Of a stretch of 63,709 bases of DNA, positions 1 through 63,709 are shown one piece after another. The first letter of the stretch is position 1; every line of letters starts with the position of its first letter. Origin of the DNA: a virus; the IMG/VR virus record IMGVR_UViG_3300022072_000008, positions 1 to 63,709 of that record. One strand, 5' to 3'. A program made the translations under genes and the position numbers. The notes under the pieces were generated by a model. That model saw only the letters and a program-made list of their open reading frames with translations. It did no database searches and had not been told where the DNA came from.

Positions 1-1686
1 AAAGAATTATTACTCTTAGGTAAAGCAGCAGAAGCCATTACTACAGTGGGTAGTAGTTTAACCTCTATTCTTACTACGCAAGGTGATGTGGTGTATCGAA
101 ATGCTACTGGCCCAGCGCGGTTAGCAGCGGGTGCAGCAGGTGAAGTCTTAAAGAGTGGAGGCGCTGGGGCTAATCCTACTTGGGGAGCAGCATCAGGTGC
201 AGCTGATTTTGAATTGGCTAGCAACATGACAGCAAGACAAGTAGCTCAAATAGATTCTACAGGTAAGATTGCGCCTATTACCTCATCTGCGCCTATAGCA
301 GCTAGCCTTATGACAACTACCCCATATCCAAATACTGGGCCATCTGGTGCTACAGGTATAAACTATTCGTGTGCAGTAGACCCATCAAACACTAACAGGT
401 TTGCGGTTGTTGGTGGAGATAGCGGCAGTAAAATTAGCGCAGGACTTGTTGCAGCAGACGGTTCAGTAACTTGGGGGGCAACGGTAACAGCGGGCACTAC
501 TACTGGTACAACTGGACATCATGATATTGAATGGGATCCTGTCAACGATGGTGTTCTTTGGGTGCGAAGTGGCCAAAGCGGTTCATCTATTTCAAGATTT
601 AGTACAACTACAGGGGGTGTTACTCTGACTCTTCTGGGGACATTTGCTGATACCACTGGCTACAACTGGGGAACACTAGACTTACACCCTACTATATCTG
701 GCAGGTTTATTATAACTCATAGATCGGCTAAAACTCTTCGCGTTTGTGATTTAACATCTAATACTGCATATTCACAAGCGGCAACGTTTAACCTTCCTTC
801 CAAAGATGCTAACTCACATATCGCTAAATTTTTCCCAGATGATGGCACTAAAATCTTATTACTGTATGCAGGATCAGGCGGTGGCTCTAAGGCTAGAGTA
901 ATGGATCTTACTGGAAATACATTAACTGCAGGCACAGAAGTTGTATTGGGTGATGCTGCTACACCTTATTTCCGAGCTAAGTCTTTTGCATGGGAGCCTA
1001 ATGGAGATTCATCTACGGGGTATAGATTTGCACTACTGGTTAATGGATTAACTGGCGCATCTGCACATGCCCAACCAGACATTGTTGTAGGTACTGTTAC
1101 TAACGTTGGGGCTACTGGAACAATCACAGTAGGAACTGCAGTAGATTGGGGTGAGGTAGTAATAGGCGGAAATCAAAATGGAGCTATGTCATCTTCAGAA
1201 TTTACACACAATCTGGCTTTTAGCCCTTACAACAAAACTGATCTTATAGTAGGTACTGATTTCATCGGCAAGTGTACTTTAGTAGGCAATGAAATAACTC
1301 TTCCTACAACGACTGTATCTAAAACTATTTCTGGCCACGGCATTACTGCCGCTAACGGCAGCTACAATATGCTTATTAACTTAGGCAGTTCTGGTAAGTA
1401 TTTATCACTTATGGAGACATCAGGTGGCGCTATAGTAAACCAACATGTAAAACCAGCAACATCAAGCATTGATGCTAACAAGATGATGGGTCTTGTAACT
1501 GCCGCAGGTTCGACAGGTGACACTAGAACTGTTCAATATTCTGGGCAAATGGGAGGCTTCTCTGGGTTGACTATTGGAGCGAGACATTACGTTCAAGGAG
1601 ATGCCAGCGTAACTTCTACTCAAGTGTCCGACTCAGTTTTTGTTGGGGTTGCGGTTAATGCAACGACGCTACAAGTTAAACTTTAA
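1..1686 (+). CDS. Tail-fibre-like beta-propeller protein, 5' end cut by window edge
   Basis: The reading frame is open from base 1 (KELLLLGKAAEAITT...), so the gene starts outside the window. The paralogue at 59922-61682 supplies the missing first 25 residues. The body carries spaced blade-like units: CAVDPSNTNRFAVV, IEWDPVNDGVLWV, LDLHPTISGRFIIT, IAKFFPDDGTKILL, FAWEPNGDSSTGYRFAL and LAFSPYNKTDLIVG. This x-DP-(n)-F-x-V pattern fits a six- or seven-bladed propeller (inference). The end (GLTIGARHYVQGDASVTST...) resembles the C-termini of the next two fibre genes. It is followed after 14 bases by the next fibre gene. Probably a receptor-binding or fibre-tip virion protein; no enzyme motif is visible. 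Confidence 0.75.
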   Translation, partial: KELLLLGKAAEAITTVGSSLTSILTTQGDVVYRNATGPARLAAGAAGEVLKSGGAGANPTWGAASGAADFELASNMTARQVAQIDSTGKIAPITSSAPIAASLMTTTPYPNTGPSGATGINYSCAVDPSNTNRFAVVGGDSGSKISAGLVAADGSVTWGATVTAGTTTGTTGHHDIEWDPVNDGVLWVRSGQSGSSISRFSTTTGGVTLTLLGTFADTTGYNWGTLDLHPTISGRFIITHRSAKTLRVCDLTSNTAYSQAATFNLPSKDANSHIAKFFPDDGTKILLLYAGSGGGSKARVMDLTGNTLTAGTEVVLGDAATPYFRAKSFAWEPNGDSSTGYRFALLVNGLTGASAHAQPDIVVGTVTNVGATGTITVGTAVDWGEVVIGGNQNGAMSSSEFTHNLAFSPYNKTDLIVGTDFIGKCTLVGNEITLPTTTVSKTISGHGITAANGSYNMLINLGSSGKYLSLMETSGGAIVNQHVKPATSSIDANKMMGLVTAAGSTGDTRTVQYSGQMGGFSGLTIGARHYVQGDASVTSTQVSDSVFVGVAVNATTLQVKL

Positions 1687-1700
1687 TCAAGGATTAGAAG

Positions 1701-2087
1701 ATGACGGATTATTTGTACACATCAGGTGGGTTTCCTGCTTCTCCTAGCTCTGGTGACTCGTTGGTTATCAATGGTCTGTTTTATGATTGGACAGGCACAG
1801 CTTGGAAAGTTAGATCTACAGTAACCAATCGAGTTGAGTTTATAGCTACTGCAAACCAAGCTACTAAAACTGGGCTAACTTATCTTGTTGGAAGTGTAGA
1901 TTGCTATATCAACGGCGCAAAGATGCTGCTTGGTACAGACTTTACAGCAACCGATGGTGTATCGGTTACGTTTACTCCCGCACTTGATCTCGATGATGAA
2001 GTACAACTTATTATGGGCGCTGACGCATCTATTGGATCCCCAGCGGTTGCTGGGGCAACTATAGCCAGAATCTTAATGTATACATAG
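1701..2087 (+). CDS. Short tail-fibre N-terminal module
   Basis: A 128-residue protein. Its first ~108 residues (MTDYLYTSGGFPASPSS..., through DDEVQLIMG) are nearly identical to the N-terminus of the 627-residue fibre protein at 61697. After that it ends in an unrelated short tail (ADASIGSPAVAGATIARILMYT) and lacks the propeller region. The upstream GGATTAGAAG leader is also nearly the same in both copies. It is either a stand-alone attachment module that partners the next gene, or a truncated fibre whose C-terminal domain was replaced. Confidence 0.7.
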   Translation: MTDYLYTSGGFPASPSSGDSLVINGLFYDWTGTAWKVRSTVTNRVEFIATANQATKTGLTYLVGSVDCYINGAKMLLGTDFTATDGVSVTFTPALDLDDEVQLIMGADASIGSPAVAGATIARILMYT

Positions 2088-2096
2088 GAGCCTCTC

Positions 2097-3284
2097 ATGG
2101 CCGAGCAAGTCAAAGTATTTAAAAATTTAGTAGATCAGACAGTAGCAGTAACGGCTACGGATGTAGTACTGCACACAACATCATCTACACAACGGGCAGT
2201 TCTAAGAGATCTAGATTGCATTAATTTAGGCTCGGACGTTAAGTTAGATCTTGATGGAAGAACAATGAATACAGGAACTTCTTCTGGAAATTTAGAGCGA
2301 ACTAAGAGTTTAATTATGGGGCCATCCTCTACGTTAAAATTAAAGTTTCCAGCAAAAGAGTCTGTTGGATTTTTAGGCATGTTCTTTTTTAATGGAACTA
2401 GTGCAATCAACGAAGGAATAAATTTAGTTACTGACGCAACAATTATTACTGAACCAGTTATTACTAGTCTTAGTGGTTCATCTATAACCCGAAGTTCTGG
2501 ATTTGTTCACAAACCTTTAGTAACTGACACTCCATATTTTTTTACTTTGAACACAGGTGTTGTTTACAAACATTCCATTACTGGCGCGGTAGTTGCTCAG
2601 CAGTCTATTGGTACTACTGCTCACCAAATGGGAAATGACGGAACGTATATTTACTACATTAAGTCAGCCACTATATATGGAAAAATGGCAATTGCTGATC
2701 TTACTTATACTGAGGTTACTGTGAGTGGCGCTTCTATGTCAATTCCGGGAGATAACCAAGGATCTTACGTCATTTATTATGACGGTAAAGTTTATTCTAA
2801 ACTGAACGGTGGTCATACTATTGTAAGTATTTTGACTTTAGCTACAGGAGTTGTGACTCAAAAAACTGACGCTAACTTTAATGTAGGTAGTTATTCTGAT
2901 GGAGCCACCCTTGTTACTAACGAAGCAGGCGTACCTTTTATTGTAGAGCAGGGCACAACTCATACTTCAGTCTGGAATATAAATACTGACGTAGTAACAA
3001 GAATAGCAGGAGGCGCTGGTTCTACTGAATATGGCAACGGAGGAGCTGAAATTAAACCGGGGGTTGCGCTAATAGTAGGTGAAGAAACTGACCGAGTAAC
3101 AATTATTGATACAAACTTTCCTGTTCCAGCTGTAACTGTTTATAAATATCCCAACAACCCATACCAATTGAATAACGTTCTTGGATCTTTTGGAAATAGG
3201 TTTGCACTTGCTGGAGGTTTAGTGCCTATAGAACCTCGTAAATTTAGCGCGTATGTTGCTGGCATAGACATTACTGAGGATTAG
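2097..3284 (+). CDS. Putative tail-fibre or receptor-binding protein
   Basis: A 395-residue protein with ATG 2097 behind an AGGAG site. No family was recognised. Residues ~1-120 look like a beta-rich attachment domain (LVDQTVAVTATDVVLHTT...). The rest carries irregular short repeats with Tyr/Ile-rich strands, such as TYIYYIKSATIYGKMAIADL and GSYVIYYDGKVYSK, reminiscent of propeller or beta-helix fibres. It has no counterpart in the 59922-63709 copy of the locus. It lies where the missing C-terminal domain of the preceding short gene would be, which suggests it took over that role (inference). Confidence 0.6.
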   Translation: MAEQVKVFKNLVDQTVAVTATDVVLHTTSSTQRAVLRDLDCINLGSDVKLDLDGRTMNTGTSSGNLERTKSLIMGPSSTLKLKFPAKESVGFLGMFFFNGTSAINEGINLVTDATIITEPVITSLSGSSITRSSGFVHKPLVTDTPYFFTLNTGVVYKHSITGAVVAQQSIGTTAHQMGNDGTYIYYIKSATIYGKMAIADLTYTEVTVSGASMSIPGDNQGSYVIYYDGKVYSKLNGGHTIVSILTLATGVVTQKTDANFNVGSYSDGATLVTNEAGVPFIVEQGTTHTSVWNINTDVVTRIAGGAGSTEYGNGGAEIKPGVALIVGEETDRVTIIDTNFPVPAVTVYKYPNNPYQLNNVLGSFGNRFALAGGLVPIEPRKFSAYVAGIDITED

Positions 3285-3287
3285 AAG

Positions 3288-4802
3288 ATGAGCAAAGCAA
3301 GGAACCTATCGACTTTACTCAGCTCAGACGGCTCAGTTAAGACAACTAAGTATACTGATAGTGTGGGTGGGCAATCTAATTTTGTAGCGTCAGGTACGTT
3401 GCCTAATGGTGTTCCCGTCATTTTAAAAACAGACGGGACTATAGAAGTTGTTGCTGGAACTTCAGCAGTTACAGAAAATATCCCAAAAGCAGTAGGAACT
3501 ACGTTTAAATCTGCTCTTGTTTCAAATTTAGCAATAGCTTTTAATCCAAATGTAGCAGGTAATTTTGTTATAGCATACGATTCAAAGTTGTTAGCAGGAA
3601 CAGTAAGTGGAAGCACTCTTTCTTTTGGGTCTGAAGTTTCTACAGGGTTAAATAATACAACGTATATCAGTATATCATTTGATCCAAATACTGCGAATAA
3701 GTTTATTGTAGTAGGAAAAATGCAATATGGATCAGTAATATTAGGTACTGTTTCTGGTACTACAGTTACTGTAAATACTACTGCTAACTTTCAACAATCT
3801 AATGTGTCATGGGTTACAGCAAAGTTTGATCCAAACAACGCTAATAAATTTGTACTTATGTATAGGGACGATACTAATTCAAATAAAGGAACTGCAATTG
3901 TAGGAACTATTTCAGGAACCACAATAACTTTTGGTTCTAAAAACGCATTATCTTTTAATAACACTTTCAATCATGTAATAGCTTTTGATCCAAGTAACGC
4001 TAATACTTTTGTACTTAACTACTCTGTAGGTTCTTATCCTTCTTGGACTGCTGGCGCTCTTGTAGGAACAATATCTGGAACCACTGTAACATATGGAGCT
4101 ACAGCTACCTATAATTCTTCAAAGTTTGCTAACTTTGCTGACATAGCTTTTGACCCTAATTCAGCTGGTAAATTTATAGTTGTTGGTGCAGCTTCTAACA
4201 ATAGTGATTATGGAACAGCAGTTGTAGGAATTGTTACAGGTACTTCTATTGCTTTTGGAAGCCCTGTTGTTTATCACTCAGGTGCGGCTTATTACAATAG
4301 TGTAAGGTTTAACCCGCATAAAGCAAACCAGTTAGTAGTGGCTTATACTTTTAACGGAGGGCAGCAGTACGCGTATGTGAGTGTAGGAACTGTTAGTGGA
4401 AATGCTGTGACTTTTGCTGCTCAGATAGTAATTAATGCTGGTGCTGGTTCTGCTTTAACAAGTATATCTTTTGACCCTAATAACGCGAATAACTTTGGAG
4501 TGGTATATAGGAATGGAGATAATTCAAACTACTCAGAAATGGTAGTTGGTGTAGTGGGATCTCCGGCAGGAACAAACATAACAAGCTCTAATTTTATAGG
4601 AATACCTAATGCTGCTTATGCAGATGGTGAAACAGCAACTGTAAAATTACAAGGAAGCTTGGCAACTAACCTATCTGGCTTAACAGCTTCAGAAACTTAT
4701 TACGTTCAAAATGATGGGACACTAGATACAACTGCTGATTCTCCATCTGTAGAAGCAGGCAAAGCATTATCATCAACCTCAATTTTATTAAAAGGTATTT
4801 AA
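3288..4802 (+). CDS. Tail-fibre protein with tandem propeller-type repeats
   Basis: A 504-residue protein whose body is a run of ~45-55-residue repeats. Examples are SFDPNTANKFIVVG...LGTVSGTTVTV, KFDPNNANKFVLMY...VGTISGTTITF, AFDPSNANTFVLNY...VGTISGTTVTY, AFDPNSAGKFIVVG and SFDPNNANNFGVVY. This is the clearest blade-like array in the window, with about seven units from residue ~75 to ~420. The C-terminus (GLTASETYYVQNDGTLDT) matches the ends of the other fibre genes. Its first 127 bases recur exactly at 63583-63709. Probably a virion fibre or tip protein; the receptor is unknown. Confidence 0.75.
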   Translation: MSKARNLSTLLSSDGSVKTTKYTDSVGGQSNFVASGTLPNGVPVILKTDGTIEVVAGTSAVTENIPKAVGTTFKSALVSNLAIAFNPNVAGNFVIAYDSKLLAGTVSGSTLSFGSEVSTGLNNTTYISISFDPNTANKFIVVGKMQYGSVILGTVSGTTVTVNTTANFQQSNVSWVTAKFDPNNANKFVLMYRDDTNSNKGTAIVGTISGTTITFGSKNALSFNNTFNHVIAFDPSNANTFVLNYSVGSYPSWTAGALVGTISGTTVTYGATATYNSSKFANFADIAFDPNSAGKFIVVGAASNNSDYGTAVVGIVTGTSIAFGSPVVYHSGAAYYNSVRFNPHKANQLVVAYTFNGGQQYAYVSVGTVSGNAVTFAAQIVINAGAGSALTSISFDPNNANNFGVVYRNGDNSNYSEMVVGVVGSPAGTNITSSNFIGIPNAAYADGETATVKLQGSLATNLSGLTASETYYVQNDGTLDTTADSPSVEAGKALSSTSILLKGI

Positions 4803-4803
4803 C

Positions 4804-5052
4804 ATGAAGACGATTGTCGAGAACGGCACAAACATCAGCAAGTATATGTTTGCTAATTCAGTGGCTATTACTATGGGTGCAGACTCTATTACAACTCCTG
4901 ATTTTATTATCGGAGATATGAATACAAGTAACTGTACGCTGGTTGAAGGCGTAACATCTCCCTCTGGCTGGGCTGGATGCAAGCACACTTTTGATGGTAC
5001 AACATGGGCTGCTAACCCAGATTGGGTTGAGCCAGAAGCAGATCCTGAGTAA
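4804..5052 (+). CDS. Small tail-fibre-associated protein, unknown function
   Basis: An 82-residue acidic protein (MKTIVENGTNISKYMF...EPEADPE) that starts one base after the preceding fibre gene. No family was recognised. It combines a beta-type N-terminus with an aromatic region (GCKHTFDGTTWAANPDWV) near the end. Small proteins of this type often follow fibre genes in marine phages and may be fibre assembly or attachment factors; here that is inferred from position only. Confidence 0.6.
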   Translation: MKTIVENGTNISKYMFANSVAITMGADSITTPDFIIGDMNTSNCTLVEGVTSPSGWAGCKHTFDGTTWAANPDWVEPEADPE

Positions 5053-5055
5053 TTT

Positions 5056-5334
5056 ATGAGCATAGTATATAGAGGCGAAACTTTTTCTGGCTACAACAAG
5101 CCGAAGCGTACCCCCAATCACCCAACGAAATCACACGCTGTTCTAATTAAAGACGGCGGCAAGGATCGGATGATTAGGTTCGGTGAGCAGGGTGCTTCTA
5201 CTGCTGGCAAACCAAAAGCTGGCGAGTCAGATAAGATGAAGGCAAAACGTAAATCATTTAAAGCCCGGCACGCAAAGAACATTGCTAAGGGTAAAACTTC
5301 AGCGGCCTATTGGGCCTCACGCACTAAATGGTAG
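5056..5334 (+). CDS. Small basic Lys-rich protein, unknown function
   Basis: A 92-residue, strongly basic protein (VLIKDGGKDRMIRFGEQG, KAKRKSFKARHAKNI, TSAAYWASRTKW) that starts 3 bases after the previous stop. This kind of short, Lys/Arg-rich protein with a conserved AAYWA-x-x-x-W end is common in podovirus structural regions, but I know no proven role. The charge suggests nucleic-acid contact, perhaps virion-packaged. Adjacent to another Lys-rich peptide at 5344. Confidence 0.65.
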   Translation: MSIVYRGETFSGYNKPKRTPNHPTKSHAVLIKDGGKDRMIRFGEQGASTAGKPKAGESDKMKAKRKSFKARHAKNIAKGKTSAAYWASRTKW

Positions 5335-5343
5335 GAGAATATT

Positions 5344-5466
5344 ATGCCAACAGTAGGAAAAGGAAGTAAGAAGAAAGAGTTTGGGTACGACGTGAAAGGT
5401 CGGACACAAGCAAAAGCGTACGCAAAAACCATGAAGACTAATGTTGTTAAGAAGAAGAAAAAGTAA
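5344..5466 (+). CDS. 40-residue Lys-rich peptide
   Basis: An ATG at 5344 behind AGGAG (5335-5339) opens a 40-codon frame that ends TAA at 5464-5466. The product is MPTVGKGSKKKEFGYDVKGR... ending in a run of lysines. Good ribosome site, tight spacing (9 bases after the previous gene) and a similar basic character support a real gene. Function unknown; a DNA-binding or packaged basic peptide is possible. Confidence 0.6.
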   Translation: MPTVGKGSKKKEFGYDVKGRTQAKAYAKTMKTNVVKKKKK

Positions 5467-5482
5467 TTTTTTTCTTAGCGTT

Positions 5483-5497
5483 ATAAGCTAGGCTTAT
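5483..5497 (+). promoter_or_regulatory. Dispersed element ATAAGC-N3-GCTTAT, copy in front of gene 5501
   Basis: Perfect 6-base arms with a 3-base spacer (ATAAGC TAG GCTTAT). The next gene's ATG (5501) begins 3 bases after the element, so there is no space for a normal ribosome site. Member of the window-wide set described in the findings. Likely a promoter/operator. Confidence 0.6.
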
Positions 5498-5500
5498 TAT

Positions 5501-5731
5501 ATGTGGTCAATTATTATTGCTATTGCTCTAATCGACAGTGGGGGGCGGGAGACACCGAAGTTGGTGTCCAGCTACCCCACTCTTAGAGAGTGTCGCTTGG
5601 AACTTTTAGAAGTAGCAAAGTCACTAGATTATGAGTTGGTGGTCAGCCCATTGCTCGGTTATTCCGTAAAAAAGGATAGTGAGGGCAAGACTATAGTGTT
5701 GTTCTGTGTCCAAAATCAAAAAGGTGTGTGA
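5501..5731 (+). CDS. Small protein with hydrophobic N-terminus at start of lysis region
   Basis: A 76-residue protein (MWSIIIAIALIDSGG..., ending FCVQNQKGV). The N-terminus has a short hydrophobic stretch, possibly a membrane anchor or signal; two Cys residues are present. No family was recognised. Its ATG follows the dispersed palindrome by 3 bases and no Shine-Dalgarno is visible, so a leaderless transcript is possible. Its place before the holin candidate and endolysin suggests a lysis-associated or spanin-like role, which is unproven. Confidence 0.55.
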   Translation: MWSIIIAIALIDSGGRETPKLVSSYPTLRECRLELLEVAKSLDYELVVSPLLGYSVKKDSEGKTIVLFCVQNQKGV

Positions 5732-5913
5732 TGTGGTCTAGCCCTTTGGAATTATACCCAGTGCATGTGTCACCTGATGTGGCACCTGTCGGTCACAGGC
5801 TTCTTATTGAGCCGCAGACTCACACAGTGAATGCGGAGTATCTTGTTGTTCAACCATCAAGAGAACCATACGGGATTCCCGTAGAGTACACACGGAGGTT
5901 ATGGATATGCTAG
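5731..5913 (+). CDS. Small protein of unknown function
   Basis: A 60-residue protein (MWSSPLELYPVHVSPDVAP...). ATG 5731 overlaps the preceding TGA by one base (TGATG), with AAGG just upstream, so translation is probably coupled. The end overlaps the next gene by 13 bases. Pro/Val-rich, no motif seen, no function assigned. A GTG at 5728 is an alternative start. Confidence 0.5.
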   Translation: MWSSPLELYPVHVSPDVAPVGHRLLIEPQTHTVNAEYLVVQPSREPYGIPVEYTRRLWIC

Positions 5914-6338
5914 CAGAATTGGCTATTGCAAATGCTGCCTTCGCAGTTATCAAAACCACACTAGCAAACGGAAAGGAAATTGCTGACGCTGGTGCCTCAT
6001 TAGGGAAATATTTTGGAGCGGAAAAGGCGATAGCTAAACAAGTAGCTAGTGGGTCTGGCAACGTACTAGAGGCTTTCCAAGCAAAGGAAGCTCTTGTTAG
6101 GCAAGAAGAAGAACTTAAATTTATGCTTAATAAACAGAGGCTGCATGGTTGGGTGGACTTTTTGGCATTCAAAGCCCAGTACACAAGAGATTTAAAAGAA
6201 GCGGAACTCGCAGCGCGCAAACAAAAGGCAGCAAAAGCCAAAGCATTAGATGAAAATTTGATGGTAGCCATGAAAGTGTTTGGCATATTAATTGTGATAC
6301 TGGGCGCGCTGTTCGGGGTCGCTATTTACGTGAGGTAA
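5901..6338 (+). CDS. Virion- or lysis-associated protein with C-terminal membrane segment
   Basis: A 145-residue protein with CGGAGG upstream of ATG 5901. Residues ~1-40 form a helical segment (ELAIANAAFAVIKTTLANG), ~60-120 are charged and coiled-coil-like, and ~124-143 are a clear transmembrane helix (VFGILIVILGALFGVAIYV). I recognise the type as a widespread small protein of podoviruses near lysis or tail genes, without a proven function. A holin/antiholin-like or membrane-anchored virion role are both open. Confidence 0.6.
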   Translation: MDMLAELAIANAAFAVIKTTLANGKEIADAGASLGKYFGAEKAIAKQVASGSGNVLEAFQAKEALVRQEEELKFMLNKQRLHGWVDFLAFKAQYTRDLKEAELAARKQKAAKAKALDENLMVAMKVFGILIVILGALFGVAIYVR

Positions 6339-6340
6339 CT

Positions 6341-6793
6341 ATGAGCTTTCTAAGTTTTTTAAGTCCAATTGCTAACTTAGGGTCAACTTACCTGGAGGGT
6401 AAGAACCAAGTGGCGAAAGCTAAATCAGCCGCCGCTATTGTTGGCTTACAAGCCGACGCAGAAGTAAAAGTAGCGGGGGCAAAAGCGGCAAACAAGCTAG
6501 CGGACAACGGACAGACGCAAGAATACAACCTTGATTTGGTGGCAATGCAACAGATGGATAAGTCATTCTTAGACGAGATTATGATTGCATTATTGCTGGT
6601 GCCTATTGCGGCGTCATTTTTAGGCTACCAAGCCGAAGTCACTGCTGCGTTTGAATCATTCGCTGCAATGCCAGATTGGTACCAGTATCTAGTGTTGGGA
6701 GTGTATGTCGTAAAGTTTGGGATGCGGGGTTTATTGACTAAGCTAATGTCAGGCAAGTTAGGAGCCTTAAACGCGAAAAAGCCCCAGCTTTAA
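6341..6793 (+). CDS. Candidate holin (three-TM gene-transfer-agent type)
   Basis: A 150-residue protein. The N-terminal half is soluble and Ala/Lys-rich. At residue ~75 it has KSFLDEIMIALLLVPIAASFLGY, then a second hydrophobic segment (WYQYLVLGVYVVKFGM). The 'SW/F-x-DE' motif followed by paired hydrophobic helices resembles the three-TM holin family of gene transfer agents. It starts 2 bases after the previous stop and lies upstream of the M15 endolysin. It would permeabilise the inner membrane to release or activate the endolysin. Confidence 0.55.
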   Translation: MSFLSFLSPIANLGSTYLEGKNQVAKAKSAAAIVGLQADAEVKVAGAKAANKLADNGQTQEYNLDLVAMQQMDKSFLDEIMIALLLVPIAASFLGYQAEVTAAFESFAAMPDWYQYLVLGVYVVKFGMRGLLTKLMSGKLGALNAKKPQL

Positions 6794-6801
6794 TATATAA
6801 T

Positions 6802-6816
6802 ATAAGCAGTGCTAAT
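6802..6816 (+). promoter_or_regulatory. Dispersed element ATAAGC-N3-GCTAAT, copy in front of gene 6831
   Basis: ATAAGC AGT GCTAAT, with the asymmetric GCTAAT arm facing the gene 14 bases downstream. TGCTAATAC resembles an extended -10 box. Member of the window-wide set. Confidence 0.6.
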
Positions 6817-6830
6817 ACATTGAGATACAC

Positions 6831-7052
6831 ATGTCTGATTTAGAAAAACGTATGACAAAAGCCGAGTATGTTTTAGAAGCTCAGGCGGACCAGATTGAAG
6901 AGCTGGAAGAAGCCCTGAAAGGGCTAAGTACGACGCTCAATGGTATAGAAAAACTTTTAGCTCAGATCAAGTGGATTGCAGTCGGAGCATTGCTGGTAGT
7001 TGCTATCAGTGACCACACATTTAGCTCAACCTTAATGAAGTTACTCTCATGA
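6831..7052 (+). CDS. Coiled-coil plus one-TM lysis protein (XhlA-like)
   Basis: A 73-residue protein. Residues ~1-47 are heptad-rich (EKRMTKAEYVLEAQADQIEEL, continuing to EKLLAQ) and ~48-62 form a transmembrane segment (IKWIAVGALLVVAIS). This coiled-coil/TM layout matches haemolysin XhlA-type holin accessory proteins. It overlaps the endolysin start by four bases (ATGA), so the two are probably translated together. Confidence 0.6.
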   Translation: MSDLEKRMTKAEYVLEAQADQIEELEEALKGLSTTLNGIEKLLAQIKWIAVGALLVVAISDHTFSSTLMKLLS

Positions 7053-7423
7053 ATGAATGGAAATATTTTACTGAAGACGAACTAAAGTGTAGCCATTCTG
7101 GAAAATGTTTGATGGACCCAAGCTTCATGCTGACGCTCGAAGCTATCCGTATAAAATGCGGGTTCCCCTTTACTATTACTTCTGCATACCGCGACCCAAC
7201 ACATCCCATCGAAGCTAAGAAATCAAAGCCCGGCTCTCACGCAAGTGGTCGTGCTGTAGACATCGCTGTGCGCGGCGACAAAGCCGTCAAGTTAATCAAG
7301 GTTGCTTTTGAGTTTGGTATTACAGGCATTGGCGTTCAGCAAAAAGGCGGCAGTCGGTTTATACATCTTGATGACTTGAGACTTGAAGACGGGTTTGCTC
7401 GACCAAATATTTGGAGTTATTAA
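7049..7423 (+). CDS. Endolysin, M15-family zinc peptidase
   Basis: A 124-residue single-domain protein. GSHASGRAVDIAV supplies H64 and D71 and FIHLDD supplies H106, the zinc-ligand pattern of the M15 (DD-carboxypeptidase / L-alanoyl-D-glutamate peptidase) fold. ITSAYRDPTH upstream is the usual conserved Arg region. It would cut peptide bridges or stems in the host wall at lysis. No signal peptide is seen, so it depends on a holin, and a holin candidate precedes it. TAATG overlap with the next gene. Confidence 0.85.
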   Translation: MNEWKYFTEDELKCSHSGKCLMDPSFMLTLEAIRIKCGFPFTITSAYRDPTHPIEAKKSKPGSHASGRAVDIAVRGDKAVKLIKVAFEFGITGIGVQQKGGSRFIHLDDLRLEDGFARPNIWSY

Positions 7424-9018
7424 TGGCTACTTTTAGCGTCTCACAATTTAACGGCATTGCCCCTAAGATTGCCCCTCGTTTGCTTGGCGAATCTATCGCA
7501 CAAGCTGCGGACAACGTGCGCTTAGACTCGGGCCGTGTTGAGGCGCTACCAAACCACAGTGCTTCGGTTTACACAGTGCCAAGCACAACGAACACAGTGT
7601 ATCTATACTCTGGTTCGATCTGGAAGAATTACAACGCAGAAGTAGATATTGTAGAAGGTCCAATTGTTAATGATGTAACTGAGCGGGTCTACTATACGGG
7701 TGAAACGTACCCGAAGATTTATCGAAACGATGGAGGTCCTTATCGTTTAGGAGTTCCAGCACCTACAGCAGCACCTACCGTAGCCGTGACGGGCACTGCT
7801 GATTTGGATGAACTTGAGGAGAGCCGTAGCTATGTTGTCACATTTGTCACAAGTTGGGGCGAAGAGGGCCCTCCATCCAGCGCAACGACACCAGTTTCGT
7901 TCCGGGATGGACAAAGTGTTACGGTCAACCTGCCAAGTATACCTACTACTGCTGGCCTTAATTTTAACTCAGGTGCTCTTAAACGTATTTACAGAACAAA
8001 CACCGGTAGCACATCCACAGGTTTTCAGTTCGTTGCCGAAGTAGCTTACACCGCAACAACTTACACGGATACAATAGCGAACAACGCACTGGGAGAAGTA
8101 ATCCCCTCAGTTACGTGGATGCGACCACCTGACGACGACACGACGTTATTTCCAACAGGTGCAATGCAAGGGCTTTGCTCAATAGGCAACGGCATAATGG
8201 CAGGGTTTACAGGTAAAACGTTATGTTTCAGTGTGCCTTACCTACCACACGCATGGCCTGTGAGTTATCAGCTTGCTACCGAATCAGAGATCGTAGCGAT
8301 CAAGCCAACGCCCGGCGGACTAGTCGTGGGGACCAAAGGCAAACCGTACATTGCCCAAGGTTCAGATCCGTCAGCCATTAGCTTAATACAACTAGAAAGC
8401 GACCAAGCGTGCGTGAGCAAGATGTCCATGGTTGATATGGGTGGCTATGTTATTTACGCCTCACCTGATGGCTTGGTGACAGTGCAGGGTCAACAGATAC
8501 AGTTAGTGACTGACGCATTGCTACGCCGCGCGCAGTGGCAAGCCTACAATCCTACAACGCTAAAAGCGATGAATTACGAAGGCACATACATTGCCTCGAA
8601 CGCAACACAAAGCATTGTCTTTGATCCGCGTGGCGCAAAGAACGCGTTGTCGACGATCAGTGATACGTTTAAAGCTGCATACAACCATTTAGAAACAGAC
8701 ACGTTGTATTTTGTAGACAGTACGTCGGTTAAGAAGTTTGGGCAGGGTTCAGGTTCGTATACATTAACTTGGAAATCAAAACCGTTTGTGAGTGCTCAAC
8801 CACGTAACTTTGGCTGGGCGCGGCTCGATGCTGCAAGCTACCCTGTCACGTTTAAACTTTACACAGACTCGACTTTGGAATTTACACACAGCGTCTTAAA
8901 TAGTGAGCCTTTTAGATTACCTTCTGCAAGTCGCGCAAAATCCTGGGAGTTTGAAGTTTCTGGGACAGCGTCAGTGAACAGCGTATCAATTGCAGATAAT
9001 GCGGCTGAACTTCTATGA
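7423..9018 (+). CDS. Tail or head-completion structural protein
   Basis: A 531-residue protein. ATG 7423 overlaps the endolysin stop (TAATG); a TTG at 7411 is less likely. The N-terminus (SVSQFNGIAPKIAPRLLGES, then AADNVRLDSGRVEALP) is a typical opening of phage stabilisation/nozzle proteins such as P22 gp10. A central part (TADLDELEESRSYVVTFV, then WGEEGPPS) looks like a fibronectin III-type unit. Later repeats may form propeller blades. Likely a virion protein of the tail stem; the exact P22 equivalence is inferred from its opening and the P22-like portal elsewhere. Confidence 0.6.
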   Translation: MATFSVSQFNGIAPKIAPRLLGESIAQAADNVRLDSGRVEALPNHSASVYTVPSTTNTVYLYSGSIWKNYNAEVDIVEGPIVNDVTERVYYTGETYPKIYRNDGGPYRLGVPAPTAAPTVAVTGTADLDELEESRSYVVTFVTSWGEEGPPSSATTPVSFRDGQSVTVNLPSIPTTAGLNFNSGALKRIYRTNTGSTSTGFQFVAEVAYTATTYTDTIANNALGEVIPSVTWMRPPDDDTTLFPTGAMQGLCSIGNGIMAGFTGKTLCFSVPYLPHAWPVSYQLATESEIVAIKPTPGGLVVGTKGKPYIAQGSDPSAISLIQLESDQACVSKMSMVDMGGYVIYASPDGLVTVQGQQIQLVTDALLRRAQWQAYNPTTLKAMNYEGTYIASNATQSIVFDPRGAKNALSTISDTFKAAYNHLETDTLYFVDSTSVKKFGQGSGSYTLTWKSKPFVSAQPRNFGWARLDAASYPVTFKLYTDSTLEFTHSVLNSEPFRLPSASRAKSWEFEVSGTASVNSVSIADNAAELL

Positions 9019-10604
9019 CAAAGAAACATATCGCACGGGCATTACCTGCGCTTCCGCCACGTATTGACCCTGAATTAAAACCATTGCTCACAGCGATAAA
9101 AGAAGTGCTGGAAGTGCAGGTCGGTCATCGTGGCGAAGACCTAGACAAAGCGGTTACGTTCCGAGATCTAACAGAATCTGGCATTGCTAACTTAGGCAAC
9201 CAAAGCAGTGTTGGCACATTGGTACCCATCTCTGATGTGGGCATACAAACACCCCCACCAGAGCCAGTTACTCTTACTGCGGCTGCAACTTTTACCAACG
9301 TTCTTTTGTCTTGGGGCGGCGGTTTTAAACACGACTTAGTTGCCTCTACTGAGGTATATCGCAGCACCTCTAACAGTTTAGCTACAGCTAGCCACATTGG
9401 TAGCACCTCGTCGTTTATTTACACAGACACTGTTGAGCCCTCAACCACTAACTATTATTGGGTTAGGTTTCGTTCACCAGCTGGTGTGGCTGGCCCGTAC
9501 AATGCAACTGCTGGAACATCGGCGGTGACCTCAAGTATTAATGATGCTATTCCTGACGCCACAATTAACGTAGCCAAGATAGCAAATTTGGTAGTCGATA
9601 TGGCTAGTGTCACAGGCACATTAACCGCAAGCCAAATTTCTGCAGGTTTAATTACATCGAATATGGTTGATGCAGCGGGTATTAGTGCAGACAAGATCAC
9701 GATGGACGGCAATATTGAATTTGCCAATACAGCTTCAGGTGTTCAGTTTGGTAAGACAGCGTTAGGTGATTCTCAAGCGGGGGCATTTTTTGGGCGGTCT
9801 GGTGGAGTGGCTGGCTTTAACATCTCATCGAGTACGAGCGGTATTTACGCAGACTCCGCTGGTCAAGTGGCATTGAACAACGTGCGCTTGTACACGGGTT
9901 CGGCTGGCTCGGCAGCAGAGTTTCCAAACCCTGGCACTTTTACACTTAACATCTCGTCAATTAGTACAGCTATCACTGTCATTATTATAGGCGGCGGCGG
10001 TGGTTCATGTAATGCTGGCGTGTATAACCCACCTTACGGAAAAATAGCGGGTACTTCAGGAACAGCTTCGTGGTTAAAGTGGTATTCAGGTTTGAACGGG
10101 ACAGGTAGTGTACTAGCTACTTACACAGCCGCTGGCGGGGCTGGGGTGGCTGCAGGGTCAGTTGGGTCAAACAGAAGTAGTGCGTCTGGTGTGTCTGGGC
10201 AAGCCTCATCAAAAGCAGCGGGAGGCGCTGGTGGCAATTATTCAGGCGGTTATGGCGGTCACGGTACTTTCGGGTCTGGTGGCGGCGGCCCAGCAGGTTC
10301 AGACACTTACAACGGGTCATCGAATGCTCCTGTTAATGTAAGTGCTGGAGCGGGAGCAACTGTTTCGCAGCTAATCAACAAACCCAGCGGCGCACAAAGC
10401 GTCAAGCTTTTTGTAGGCACTGGCGGCACTGGCGGACAAGGCTTTAGCCAATTCATTGGGGGCAACGACAATGTTCAAGGAGCAAATGTCGCCGGAGGAG
10501 GTAACGGCGGTAACGGCTTTGTATCAGTGGCTGATCCGAACTCAGGCGGCATTGAAGTGGATCTACTTTCAATCGTTAACCGACTTACAGCAGCAGGTAT
10601 TTAA
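9015..10604 (+). CDS. Central tail/adhesin protein with glycine-rich C-terminal domain
   Basis: A 529-residue protein. Residues ~80-165 look like a fibronectin III domain (VTLTAAATFTNVLLSWGGGF...). Residues ~180-260 match phage central tail-protein segments (ITSNMVDAAGISADKITMDG). Residues ~330-510 carry many glycine runs (GGGGGS, GGAGGNYSGGYGGHG, GGGGPAG, GTGGTGGQG, GGGNGGNG). Such runs form polyglycine-II-type sandwiches in T4-like gp38/S16 adhesins, so this may be a receptor-binding tip. ATGA overlap with the upstream gene. Confidence 0.65.
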   Translation: MTKKHIARALPALPPRIDPELKPLLTAIKEVLEVQVGHRGEDLDKAVTFRDLTESGIANLGNQSSVGTLVPISDVGIQTPPPEPVTLTAAATFTNVLLSWGGGFKHDLVASTEVYRSTSNSLATASHIGSTSSFIYTDTVEPSTTNYYWVRFRSPAGVAGPYNATAGTSAVTSSINDAIPDATINVAKIANLVVDMASVTGTLTASQISAGLITSNMVDAAGISADKITMDGNIEFANTASGVQFGKTALGDSQAGAFFGRSGGVAGFNISSSTSGIYADSAGQVALNNVRLYTGSAGSAAEFPNPGTFTLNISSISTAITVIIIGGGGGSCNAGVYNPPYGKIAGTSGTASWLKWYSGLNGTGSVLATYTAAGGAGVAAGSVGSNRSSASGVSGQASSKAAGGAGGNYSGGYGGHGTFGSGGGGPAGSDTYNGSSNAPVNVSAGAGATVSQLINKPSGAQSVKLFVGTGGTGGQGFSQFIGGNDNVQGANVAGGGNGGNGFVSVADPNSGGIEVDLLSIVNRLTAAGI

Positions 10605-10636
10605 TTAACTAAACAGTACTCACAAAGGTAATAAAT

Positions 10637-11368
10637 GTGGCATCAGTCAAACGGCAGCGCATTAGTACTCAAGAAGCACGGATGAAATCATCGTTAAAGT
10701 TTGCAGAGGATCGAGAAAGACCGCCATTACAACCCAAGACACCGAACCAAGATAAGTATCTCAAAGCATTAAAAAACCCACACTGCCCAGTGATCATTGC
10801 ATCGGGTGTAGCGGGGTCAGGAAAAACCTACCTAGCGTGCGCATATGCCGCTGACCAATTCATGCAGAACCGCGTACAAAAGATTATCTTGTGCCGCGCA
10901 AACATTCCTACTGGCCGAAGCCTCGGCGCATTCAAAGGTGACAAAGACGACAAGATGATGAACTGGGTTATGCCTATGGTCGACGTCTTAAAGCAACGCA
11001 TGGGTGCAGGTCGGTTTGATACCGCATTAGCGAATGGCAATATAGAGCTACAGCCATTAGAAACTATTCGTGGTCGATCTTTTGGCGGTGATAAAGAAGG
11101 TGCGATTGTTTTAATAGACGAAGCACAGCAGATGACAGTCGAAGAAATAAAAGCGGTGACCACTCGAATTGGTGAAAACTGTGTGTTGGTGTTGATGGGT
11201 GACTTGGCTCAATCGGACATTAAGCAGTCGTCAGGTTTGGGGGTATTAATTAAATTGCTGGATAAACATAAGCTGCCGATTACAGTTATCGACTTTGAGA
11301 TCTCAGACATCCAGCGTAGTGATACGTGTCGAATGTTCGTAGAGTTATTCTATAAAGAGGGTATATGA
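10637..11368 (+). CDS. phoH: PhoH-like ATPase
   Basis: A 243-residue protein with a GTG start at 10637 behind AAAGG. Walker A is GVAGSGKT (residues ~57-64) and Walker B is IVLIDEAQQ (~156-164), with the family's Q-rich step after it. Length and layout match the P-loop PhoH family, common in marine phages and usually counted as an auxiliary gene. The role is unsettled: ATP-dependent RNA metabolism is proposed, and phosphate-stress linkage is not consistent. It lies at the end of the rightward run, just before attP. Confidence 0.85.
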   Translation: MASVKRQRISTQEARMKSSLKFAEDRERPPLQPKTPNQDKYLKALKNPHCPVIIASGVAGSGKTYLACAYAADQFMQNRVQKIILCRANIPTGRSLGAFKGDKDDKMMNWVMPMVDVLKQRMGAGRFDTALANGNIELQPLETIRGRSFGGDKEGAIVLIDEAQQMTVEEIKAVTTRIGENCVLVLMGDLAQSDIKQSSGLGVLIKLLDKHKLPITVIDFEISDIQRSDTCRMFVELFYKEGI

Positions 11369-11879: not shown

Positions 11880-13049
11880 ATGGCCACATACACCCCACTC
11901 AAAGATAAGACAGGCAAAATAACTGCACATCGTTTTCAAATAAGGAAACGAGGGTATAAAGAAAAAACTAAGCAGTTTACCACCAAAGGAAAAGGTGAGC
12001 GTTGGGCTAAGAAAACCGAATCTGAAATGGATGCTGGTTCATACGAAAGCACATCGAACGCTGGACGTTGGACGCTGGGCGCTGTTATGGCCGAGTACCT
12101 CGACAAAATACACCCTATCAAACCTTTTTGTAAATCCAAGAAGAATGCACTACTTCGTTTAATCGAACACCCGATGGCGTCAGTCAGTATTGTGGATCTT
12201 ACTACTCACCATTTCTATGAATTTGCAAAGTATCGTTCAGAGCATGGTGCGGGTCCAAAAACTGTAGCAGATGATATTGGGTATATAAGCAAAGCGCTGA
12301 CGTATGGTCGCGCCATTTTAAAAATACCTAATGCAACTAAGCCGCTAGACGAAGTTAGACCTGTGCTAAATGACTATGGGTTAACTGGTTCGAGTAATAA
12401 GCGCAAACGCAGACTTGTGCCAGGAGAGTTTGAGGCGCTTATGTCTGTACCCCACAGAAAATATGATGGGGCTAGAAGCAATGACAAGGTCATGACTCGG
12501 CTAAGAATGAAATACATTATTCCTTTAGCACTTGAGACAACGATGCGGGAATCAGAAATTGCTCGAATGAAGATTGATGATGTTAATTTTGAGGAAGGGG
12601 AGCTGATGATTTGGGCGCGAAAGCACCCAACAAAGAAGGAAACAAACGATCAGTTAATTCCTCTTACAGAAGAAGCTAGAAAAGTTTTGCGAGAGTATTT
12701 GAACTTAGGCATTCACACTAAAGGCAAACCTTTGTTCTGGCCAGTAAAAGCTAAGAACATGGGTGACATGTTTCACACAATGGCTGAGAAGAGTGGGATT
12801 AATGAAGTGGGTAGCAGTGTTAAGTCAAACTTTAATAACTTGACGTTTCATGATTTGAGGCACGAAGCAATCACACGATTGTTTGCGGAAGGGTTTAAAG
12901 CGGAGGAAGTGATGTTGTTCTCAGGTCATACCGACATGAAGTCACTGTTGATCTATGTAAACCTCACCCCAGCCGATGTCCTACGCGCTAAGGAAATACG
13001 GCGCGTGATCATGGAACAACGGCTAGACGAGATTAGTTTAGCTCTTTAA
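11880..13049 (+). CDS. int: Tyrosine site-specific integrase
   Basis: A 389-residue phage integrase. An N-terminal arm-binding region (residues ~1-60) and a core-binding SAM-like domain (~65-150) precede the catalytic domain (~180-380). Catalytic residues are visible: R223 (TTMRESEIARM), a Lys in WARKHPTKKE, H324-x-x-R327 (HDLRHEA), H350 (FSGHTD) and Y359 (LLIYVNL). AAGGAG precedes ATG 11880. It should integrate at the tRNA-like attP just upstream. Its 3' end overlaps the convergent leftward gene by 17 bases. Confidence 0.92.
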   Translation: MATYTPLKDKTGKITAHRFQIRKRGYKEKTKQFTTKGKGERWAKKTESEMDAGSYESTSNAGRWTLGAVMAEYLDKIHPIKPFCKSKKNALLRLIEHPMASVSIVDLTTHHFYEFAKYRSEHGAGPKTVADDIGYISKALTYGRAILKIPNATKPLDEVRPVLNDYGLTGSSNKRKRRLVPGEFEALMSVPHRKYDGARSNDKVMTRLRMKYIIPLALETTMRESEIARMKIDDVNFEEGELMIWARKHPTKKETNDQLIPLTEEARKVLREYLNLGIHTKGKPLFWPVKAKNMGDMFHTMAEKSGINEVGSSVKSNFNNLTFHDLRHEAITRLFAEGFKAEEVMLFSGHTDMKSLLIYVNLTPADVLRAKEIRRVIMEQRLDEISLAL

Positions 13050-50468: not shown

Positions 50469-53400
50469 ATGAGTGGTAACCTCCTAAGAGACATAAACTC
50501 GCTAAAACTAGACATTGAAAAACAAGCAGAGACTAAGAGCTCAGGATTGCCGGGTCGAATAGCTTTGCTTAGACAAGATTTAGACGCGGGTATGATACTC
50601 ACTCCCCAAAACTTGACGCCTATGGACGCGGGTATGGAAGCAGGTAGACAGGGGCTAAAATCCGCAAAGAACACTGCGCTGTCTGCTGGTAACTATCTCA
50701 TTGGGGACGACGAGGCTGGGGCAGATTACCTTAAAGAAGCTCAAGCTATTGATGGGCAAGTAGGGCGGTTATCTGGCCAGTACACCAGCTTTGAAGAGTT
50801 TATTGATGATCCAGGTTTCAGTAATTTTGCTGAGATGACCACATTCAAACTAGGGCAAGCGGTCCCATCGGCCATTGAAAGTTTTGCATCTGGTACGGCA
50901 GGCGCAGCAATGGGTTTTGTAGGTAGCGGTGGCGTTGGCGCTATTCCAGGTTTTGTTGGAGGTTTGGTTGCCAAAGGCAAAGCAAAACGCATGATTCGTG
51001 ATGCTATTATTGACTACGCCCAAGGTAAAGCAACTGATGAACAAAAGAACGTCGCACAACAAGCCTTAAAATTCGGCGCTGTTAACAGTTATAACAGTGC
51101 AAAACGAGGCATTGTGCCGGGCGCTAAAATTGGCGCAATGAGTTCAGGTTATTACCAAGGTGTATCAGCATCGTTCGGCGAATCTGTTGAGACCGGGCAA
51201 GATAGACAAGAAGCTGCAGGCATTGCCGCATTAATGGGTATACCGTTTGCTGCGGCTGACGTTGCTCCAGAAATATTATTCGTAAAATCATTAGCCAAAC
51301 TTGGCAAGTCTACAGGCGACACTTCTGCACTGAGAGCGTTTGGCGGTACTGTTTTGAAGCAAGGCGCTGCAGAAGCATTAGCGGAAGGTAGTCAAGAAAG
51401 TTTAATTGTCGCCCAACGTTTTCAACAAGACCCCAACTACGACGCAGAACGTGCGGTCATGCGTATTGCGGATTCTGCATACTCTGGTTTGGTTGCTGGT
51501 AAAGCGTTAGGTGTAACATCTGGCACAGTGAACGCTGCATTAACAACAGCAAGAAACGCACTAAATAAAACTAGACAAACCATCCATGAGAAGACAGCGC
51601 CTGATGCTGAAACGGTAAAGAATTTTGAGTTTGACGACCTATCGCCAGAGGGCATGGCGCAAGTCCCACTGAACGAGTTGGTTTACGCTGTTCAAGATGT
51701 ACAAGAGGGCCAAACCTTCGAAGCTGACCCAATCTCACAAGAGCATGCCGCTGCAGCGATCCAAGAACTAAACAGACGCGCCGAAGAGATGGGGCAAAAC
51801 CGTTTCCAAGAATTAGTAATGAGAGAGCTGAACGCAGGCAAAACTGCAGACCCCTCGTCAGAACTTGAGCAGGCCACGCCTAACGAAAGCGATTTACCAG
51901 AAGCAGGCGCAACTGAGCAGCGCGCAGTAGACAACTACGAAGACGAAGACATTGCAACAGCAGAAACGACTCAAGGTTTTGAAGAAAGGTTACTCGGTCA
52001 CAAAAATAAAAAAGCACTTGTAGGCTACAAAATAGGGAGCAACGGATTAAAGGACAGGCTTGCAGAACTGCAAGAAGAAAACCCTGGACGGCAGTATCGG
52101 TTAGTACAAAAAGATGGGAAAGGCTATGTAGAAGAAGTCGTTGAAAGTAGTTTTGACGTGACCGAAATTGTGAACGAAGGCATTACGAAAGCGCGAGCTG
52201 GAGTACTAAAAAAAGGTGTTGATAGAACTGTTCCCGCCACTGATCCGCAAGGAAAAGACTTTAAGCTAGCTCCTACGGAGTTAGCGTTTGCAGGCCAACG
52301 TGCCAATAACAAAGACAAAGCTAACGCAGCAAACATGACCTACCCGCAGTTAATCATGTCAGGTTTGCTGCGCATGGTTCAGGAGCTGACGGAGAAAGGG
52401 TTCAAAATGGACCTTGATGCGCTGCCCGATAACACAGTTATTATTAGGGGTAAGGCAAAAAACGATGTTCCCGTTCGCACTCAGTATACTTGGGGGGACC
52501 TCAAAAGGGCTTGGGCCCAAAGAAAAGACACAAGGGAAGGGTCGGCGTTCGACGGTTTAAACGCGAAGGAACAGAAGCTCATCGAAACAGAAGAGCAGAT
52601 AGAAAAGCTTGGGCGCAACCCCTATGTCGGTGCAACTCGAAATGAATTAGATGAACTAATAATTCAGCGTGATGCACAACTAGCGGAAATAGAAAGCAGG
52701 GACGACACAGAAACTGACACTACAGTAATGGGGACGATCCAGCAGGAGCAGGAAGAACAGAAAGCCCGAATCCTTGACGAAGATGGTAAGGCGATTACTT
52801 ACCCTAATACAAAATCACGTAAAGGGAAAATTAGAACAGCACCAAAAGATGAATCCATAAGCTACGGCGTTGTGAAGAAAAAGGGCAAACCAGCAAGTGA
52901 AGCCCAACAAAAAGTTTTAGATAATCGCGCTAAACGAAAGGCTAAAAAAACTGCTGATGCGCAAGAGCGACGAGAAAGGATAGAACAAGACAAAAAAGAC
53001 AAGCAGGCCGAGGTAGACCAAACTAAACAAGCGACGCAAGAACGCGTAGCAAAGACAAAAGCGAAGCGCGACGCAGCAAAGCCAAAGCCAAAACCAAAGC
53101 CAAAGCCAAAGCCAAAGCCAAAGCCAAAGCCAAAGCAAGAGCAGAAGCCCCAGCCAAAAGCAAAGCCTTTAACGCGAAAGGAATCAGGCAAGGTGTCTTT
53201 CTATGGGACTTTTCCAGATGTGTTCGCGCGTTACGCCAACGCAATTATATCGGCTGTGGGCATAAAGACTAAAGTCCATATTATGTGGGCAGACGACCTC
53301 CAAGCATTTAATGAGCAGAACGGCAATCCTATAGGGGAAGCCAGTGTAAAAAATGCTATTGACGGCACACTGAAAGGATTCGTTGCACAACGTGATGGCA

Positions 53401-59060: not shown

Positions 59061-59909
59061 ATGGCTTTTGAGAATAATGTACAGGCTACACTTCACACAA
59101 ACGTAGCCGTTGGCGCGACTACAGTTGATGTAGTGAAGGCTATTGCGCCTAATAAAGATGTTCCTGCAAGTGGTCGATTAACTTTATCTGCAACTGGTAA
59201 GATTGAAATCATTAGCTACACAGGGCGCACTAACCCTGTTGATAGTCAAACTTTTGCAGTCACTGCTGTTGGCGGTAACTACATTATAAGCAGTGTGGCT
59301 AATAAAGCGTTAACTTTAAAAGCTGGATCTACCTATATATTTACTTATCCATCAGGACATCCGTTTCGATTTTCTACTACTTCAGATGGTACACATGGAA
59401 GCGGATCAGAATACACTACAGGTGTAACTCACAATAGCTCAACACAAACTACAATTATTGTATCTGATAGCACTCCAACCACTCTATATTATTACTGCTC
59501 TTATCACTCAAACATGGGTGGTGATATATCAGTTATTAGCTATTGGACATTAACTGGTGTCACTAAAAATGCAGAGTCTTCGTTTGGTGATCAGGCATGG
59601 TCAGCAGGAGATGCTTGTTTTCAAGCGTTAACTGCGGCAGATGTTGCTTCCTTACAAGGTGCAACTGGGCCTGCTGGTGCAACTGGAGCTACTGGCCCCG
59701 CAGGAACAGCCGCTTTAGTCTTAATCAGTCAATCAACAGCCCCTACTTCACCCGCCCTTGGGCAACAGTGGTTTGATACTTCTCAAGGTATTCTTTATCA
59801 ATTCTTTACGGATGGTACAGACGGTGCTTGGCTAGATCAAGGCGCAGTAAACAGCACTCCATCTGCATCAGCTGAAGATGCTGAAATTTTAGCACTTATC
59901 GGACTCTAA
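59061..59909 (+). CDS. Tail collar-like protein with cupredoxin-like insertion and collagen-like repeat
   Basis: A 282-residue protein. Residues 1-58 and 161-185 together look like one small domain (IEIISYTGRT ... WTLTGVTKNAES) split by an insert at ~62-160. The insert is beta-rich with H100 (SGHPFRF), C146, H149 and M152 (YYYCSYHSNMGG), the ligand set and spacing of a type-1 copper (cupredoxin) site. Residues ~200-216 are collagen-like (GATGPAGATGATGPAG). The end (GQQWFDTSQGILYQFF) is a common fibre motif. Confidence 0.68.
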   Translation: MAFENNVQATLHTNVAVGATTVDVVKAIAPNKDVPASGRLTLSATGKIEIISYTGRTNPVDSQTFAVTAVGGNYIISSVANKALTLKAGSTYIFTYPSGHPFRFSTTSDGTHGSGSEYTTGVTHNSSTQTTIIVSDSTPTTLYYYCSYHSNMGGDISVISYWTLTGVTKNAESSFGDQAWSAGDACFQALTAADVASLQGATGPAGATGATGPAGTAALVLISQSTAPTSPALGQQWFDTSQGILYQFFTDGTDGAWLDQGAVNSTPSASAEDAEILALIGL

Positions 59910-61682: not shown

Positions 61683-61696
61683 TCAAGGGTTAGAAG

Positions 61697-63580: not shown

Positions 63581-63582
63581 CA

Positions 63583-63709
63583 ATGAGCAAAGCAAGGAAC
63601 CTATCGACTTTACTCAGCTCAGACGGCTCAGTTAAGACAACTAAGTATACTGATAGTGTGGGTGGGCAATCTAATTTTGTAGCGTCAGGTACGTTGCCTA
63701 ATGGTGTTC
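63583..63709 (+). CDS. 5' end of a tail-fibre gene, cut by window edge
   Basis: ATG 63583 opens a frame whose 127 bases to the window end are identical to 3288-3414 (MSKARNLSTLLSSDGSVKTT...). The bases just before the ATG differ from those at 3287. It is either a second copy of that gene or the same gene reached from the other side of a repeat. Confidence 0.7.
   Translation, partial: MSKARNLSTLLSSDGSVKTTKYTDSVGGQSNFVASGTLPNGV

Follow-up and report, generated by a model that had tools for sequence, protein, structure and literature searches.

Hypervariable recognition loci of marine phages have been described as metaviromic islands (Mizuno et al., 2014; PMC3909814), and such recognition islands break short-read assemblies (Warwick-Dugdale et al., 2019; PMC6487183). 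The window analysed here, a stretch of 63,709 nt that constitutes one whole virus record, contains a locus that resembles these islands: near-identical phages differ at tail-fibre or recognition genes, gene content varies within the population, and short-read assemblies branch and break. The locus differs from the described islands in that a single contig retains the two alternative alleles, one at each end, and in that the replacements separating them fall on one face of a predicted propeller. It is a good example of a known phenomenon, to which a correction from paralogues to alleles and a specific, testable face are added here.

Beta-propeller receptor-binding proteins of phages include phi11 Gp45 (five blades), PRD1 P2, and PhiKZ gp131C (seven blades) (PMC4901313). 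The fibre protein considered here is similar with respect to a propeller in a distal tail protein and a proposed ligand site on one face. In contrast, its propeller is a predicted one, has about seven blades, and has no sequence match to a solved structure: a phmmer search of the full-length allele (B) against the PDB gave 0 matches at E up to 1, and hence no sequence homology to a solved propeller receptor-binding protein. The closest named portal proteins are of the phage KPP25 type (Pseudomonas, 62-64 kb), with 43% identity. KPP25 and its relatives share a similar genome size and this level of portal identity with the present phage, but the fibre genes are not common to them, and the lineage described here is a metagenomic one with a tyrosine integrase. 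The phage is apparently a temperate relative of the KPP25 group. The integrase gene lies at 11880-13049 (plus strand; PF00589, E=1.7e-23), in a phage whose portal is KPP25-like.

An earlier note had described the similar fibre genes at the two ends of the record (A and B; Table 1) as paralogues. The evidence instead identifies them as alternative alleles at overlapping contig ends. Positions 1-2030 and 59997-62026 are 94% identical and align without gaps. The last bases of the record, 63583-63709, are an exact copy of 3288-3414, with a match length of 127 and a backward extension of 0 nt; 127 is a usual largest word length in short-read metagenome assemblers. An independent viral contig of 19.2 kb from another metagenome (L172) is 100% identical to 61474-63709 and then runs unbroken into 3288-11267, where one base in 7,980 differs (99.987% identity beyond the junction from B-C to E), and therefore joins B-C (haplotype 2) directly to gene E. 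The first base of L172 corresponds to 61474, which is the first base of a 152-nt run identical in A and B, indicating that the assembly of the second metagenome branched there; since this is the branch point expected of a graph holding both alleles, both probably occur in that sample too. A relative with a 61.3-kb genome (G011; portal protein 87% identical) has the homologues of the two record ends in one contiguous stretch, with a single fibre set between them.

The simplest account of these observations is a circular phage map of ~60 kb with overlapping ends, whose fibre locus exists in two alternative forms, A-c-D-E and B-C-E. The assembly path crosses the 152-nt stretch identical in A and B, so that we infer the pairing of heads with tails and, with it, the phase of A with c-D. 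The start of the record does not fit the rule of branching at runs of more than 127 nt, as just 115 shared bases follow base 1; a third allele or a drop in coverage there is possible. The fibre locus is hypervariable (A-c-D versus B-C), and its flank is 99.99% identical between the two metagenomes. Apparent paralogues at both ends of a viral contig should be checked first for being alleles, and population alleles of a putative receptor-binding gene can be read straight from public viral records whose contig ends overlap.

Table 1. Features of the fibre locus and of the contig ends, in window coordinates; loops are those of the predicted propeller of B
Feature	Position	Strand	Basis
Fibre allele A (allele of 59922-61682), 5' end cut by contig end, 561 codons present	1-1686	+	Open frame; 94% nt identical, gap-free, to 59997-61682
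Run identical in A and B, 152 nt (= 61474-61625)	1478-1629	+	Sole common run >127 nt; L172 starts at its first base
c, 128 aa, haplotype 1; adaptor module as at the N-terminus of C, plus ATIAR-type tail	1701-2087	+	93% identical to first 112 aa of C; dN/dS 0.18
D, fibre protein, 395 aa, haplotype 1, in place of C; predicted beta-sandwich plus propeller	2097-3284	+	AlphaFold model, Foldseek propeller matches, relatives
127-nt copy of the contig's last bases, haplotypes rejoin here	3288-3414	+	Exact match length 127
E, fibre protein with propeller, follows both haplotypes; 5' end = cassette boundary	3288-4802	+	Neighbour comparison
Conserved structural gene directly upstream of fibre locus, baseplate/tail-fibre connector-like	59061-59909	+	PHROG 677, E=7.6e-11, and others
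Fibre allele B, 586 aa, full length; predicted ~7-bladed beta-propeller (residues ~146-495) between an N-terminal part and a C-terminal domain	59922-61682	+	AlphaFold model, Foldseek
BC loop, blade 1, residues 164-168, variable face	60411-60425	+	B model
DA loop, blades 1/2, residues 189-199, variable face	60486-60518	+	B model
BC loop, blade 2, residues 216-220, variable face	60567-60581	+	B model
DA loop, blades 2/3, residues 242-250, variable face	60645-60671	+	B model
BC loop, blade 3, residues 266-269, variable face	60717-60728	+	B model
DA loop, blades 4/5, residues 336-348, variable face	60927-60965	+	B model
BC loop, blade 5, residues 374-383, variable face	61041-61070	+	B model
DA loop, blades 5/6, residues 403-429, variable face	61128-61208	+	B model
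C, 627 aa, second fibre protein in haplotype 2; A/B-like propeller (50-52% aa identity) behind an adaptor module	61697-63580	+	Alignment; identical in L172
Contig end, duplicate of 3288-3414	63583-63709	+	Exact match

C is an undoubted paralogue of A/B, and A/B, C and D have no confident Pfam or PHROG family match. Similarity searches with the fibre protein gave nothing beyond short matches at the N-terminus, from Pelagibacter phages and a single uncultured marine phage, and a scan of bacterial genomes gave no relative. Searches of viral contigs for further A/B alleles (with the fibre protein, exact DNA words, and a three-sequence profile) yielded L172 and a homologue in L171 (66%), and no others. 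The relatives of D are in L173 (68%), L174 (56%), and L075 (33%). Three kinds of upstream neighbour are observed for E: D within the record, C at the record end and in L172, and an unrelated ORF in L181. Upstream of the locus, the gene at 59061-59909 has a domain (59240-59540, residues about 60-160) that is present in >100 other viral contigs at roughly 43-78% identity.

Several parts of the locus recur elsewhere. Copies of the C-type adaptor (MTDYLYTSGGF...), with about 87-94% amino acid identity, precede different fibre domains in unrelated contigs (L173:9186-9518, L174:4492-4824, and L171:17448-17738, in addition to 1701-2087 of the record). A short ATIAR/ATIAK gene end followed by D moves as a unit between phages (2040-3284; L075:3-1611; L173:7890-9182; L174:3172-4488). 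L171 also has a 2557-aa ORF (L171:9762-17435) in which a C-type adaptor is followed by four consecutive E-like propeller repeats, and L182 has several E-like propellers in tandem ORFs.

Realignment of 415-963 with 60411-60959 (183 codons in frame, no gaps; 44 base differences) reproduced exactly the 26 replacement and 4 silent codons counted by eye in the earlier note, and its impression that many codons are changed at two or three bases was borne out, with 11 such codons. This region is the most extreme part of a gene-wide pattern: over the full pair, 1-1683 versus 59997-61679 (561 codons), the counts are 57 replacement and 17 silent. The ratio of 26:4 is by itself unremarkable against a neutral expectation near 3:1, but it is remarkable against comparators, as the N-terminal part shared by c and C has 8 replacement and 15 silent codons (Fisher P=1.4e-4 versus 26:4).

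The dN/dS ratio of the full A/B pair is 1.16-1.22 rather than well below 1 (1.16 by pairwise codon likelihood), and a likelihood-ratio test does not distinguish it from 1 (P=0.56). For 415-963 the ratio is 2.43 (P=0.056 versus 1), in a region that was picked post hoc; a scan for the best 183-codon window gave P=0.165, so that 415-963 is not unusual given the gene-wide ratio. Comparison of the same gene with the L171 homologue gives 0.25-0.26 over a longer divergence, and the A/B ratio is far above this long-term value of about 0.25 (P=1.5e-10). Among the comparators, the ratio is about 0.05 for the portal, 0.32 for E versus its counterpart in L181, and 0.18 for the c/C N-terminus.

A structure model of B (AlphaFold model m8c5e137f46f3) was built from a profile of 18 relatives. 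Its confidence is modest (mean pLDDT 69.6; mostly about 70-93 at residues 200-400), and its Foldseek matches are seven-bladed and WD40 propellers; on this basis, a beta-propeller fold is predicted for the A/B fibre. Where a propeller blade has four strands, its BC and DA loops are found at one face, and its AB and CD turns at the opposite one. The earlier note had placed the changes in surface-like loops between blades. As a statement about loops in general this did not hold, since changed residues have no significant preference for non-strand over strand positions (P=0.2-0.8); it did hold, within the predicted model, for the loops of one face. Although the loop classes were defined with the changes already known, a mechanical partition from the DSSP strand list gave the same result: 25 replacement and 0 silent codons among the 129 codons of the BC/DA loops, and 1 replacement among the 69 of the AB/CD turns (P=1.2e-4). 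Changed strand residues also sit nearer the BC/DA face (P=0.0045), and the changes do not fall in the core of the modelled propeller.

A two-omega model assigns 3.0 to the BC and DA loops and 0.79 to the rest of the protein (LRT 27.5), and the loop value differs from omega=1 (LRT 14.4, P=1.5e-4). The strong diversifying selection proposed in the earlier note is consequently not supported for the whole pair, nor formally for 415-963, but it is supported for the BC/DA face. These selection tests rest on one sequence pair, without a phylogeny. The AB/CD turns are conserved family-wide (14/66 for B versus C, 12/66 for B versus the L171 homologue), which implies that the contrast between faces is in part structural constraint. 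The lack of silent changes on the variable face is stronger evidence than that contrast; with each codon counted once it has P=6e-4 (kappa 0.7), and with single-base codons only, P=4e-3 to 6e-3 (kappa 0.7-1.7).

Taking these results together, we consider it likely that the record derives from a mixed population of a circular ~60-kb phage in which A and B are alleles, the BC/DA face is a receptor-binding surface under diversifying selection, and neighbouring genes are exchanged as cassettes. The record would then represent a short-tailed phage genome assembled from this population and cut open inside the fibre locus. The position in the tail-fibre region and the variable face together suggest that the BC/DA face is the receptor-binding surface, which may bind a variable host surface structure. 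Variation of the host receptor would select for amino acid changes on this face, with constraint persisting elsewhere in the protein, and several fibre alleles would be maintained in the population. The neighbouring propeller genes, C versus c-D, would be swapped as cassettes between a common adaptor module and E. The A and B alleles may, we infer, differ in host range; should the BC/DA face be the one that binds the receptor, host-range differences between otherwise near-identical phages would come down to a few dozen residues.

It is unlikely that the alleles diverged without positive selection, through relaxed constraint or unpurged polymorphism with clusters arising from multinucleotide mutation. 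The whole-pair dN/dS of 1.16, no different from 1, is consistent with such an origin, and multinucleotide changes can mimic selection and inflate omega: the 11 multi-base codons compare with a mean of 3.2 under random placement by codon position (none of 20,000 draws reached 11). Transversions also predominate over transitions in 415-963 (32:12; 33:12 in 412-963), as against 4:23 in c/C, an excess only partly explained by the replacement bias. However, neutral divergence does not readily give 0 silent among 25 changed codons on one face, a result that stands at about P=5e-3 when multi-base codons are removed. Relaxation of constraint would, moreover, have to be local to one face, as the first 137 codons (transitions:transversions 17:4) and c/C (23:4) both show ordinary constraint.

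Import of loop patches from related fibre genes, whether through recombination or through gene conversion, appears distinctly improbable as the source of the replacements, even though the locus is clearly mosaic, as shown by the exchange of C and c-D, the three upstream neighbours of E, and the reuse of the adaptor. Silent divergence is 0.05 in A/B and about 0.22 in c/C directly downstream (about four-fold; Fisher P=4e-5 on codon counts), which implies separate histories and points to recombination between these two segments. Imported tracts should nevertheless carry silent changes, and the variable loops have none. Gene conversion from C was rejected, because C agrees with neither allele at most differing sites: at the 57 differing A/B residues it agrees with A at 15, with B at 8, and with neither at 31.

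It is very unlikely that one genome carries A and B in tandem as true paralogues, in a fibre array left unclosed by the assembler. Tandem propeller fibre genes do occur in the relatives L182, L171 and L173, and C is clearly paralogous to A/B. An array of this kind is difficult to reconcile with the independent contig, in which B-C leads straight into E: A-c-D likewise leads straight into E, so that a molecule holding both would need two copies of E that match over 127 nt or more. In addition, the gene at 59061-59909 runs directly into B, L172 breaks precisely where the alleles would merge, and the relative G011 has a single fibre set.

With diversifying selection on the BC/DA face of two alleles as the preferred reading, there is very little room for an unusual mutational process acting besides selection and itself directed at the binding loops, such as the transversions, multi-base codons, lack of silent changes and lack of a retroelement might suggest. 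The earlier note's suggestion of targeted replacement found no support in the form of a diversity-generating retroelement with adenine-directed loop mutagenesis, which is excluded as far as the record reaches: many changed codons do vary in the first two bases and keep the third, as in NNC/NNT variable repeats, but the record has no reverse transcriptase (PF00078; controls positive) and no template repeat on either strand outside A/B themselves, the changes are spread over >1 kb, and adenine is involved in just 25 of the 45 differences in 412-963.

Two repeats were observed in structural genes elsewhere in the record. A 32-nt direct repeat (97% identical; 57155-57186 and 57884-57915) lies inside the structural gene 56320-58773, and a lysine-proline repeat, (KP)n, is encoded at 53075-53150 inside a 1784-aa virion protein, with a similar KP-rich stretch in the G011 homologue.
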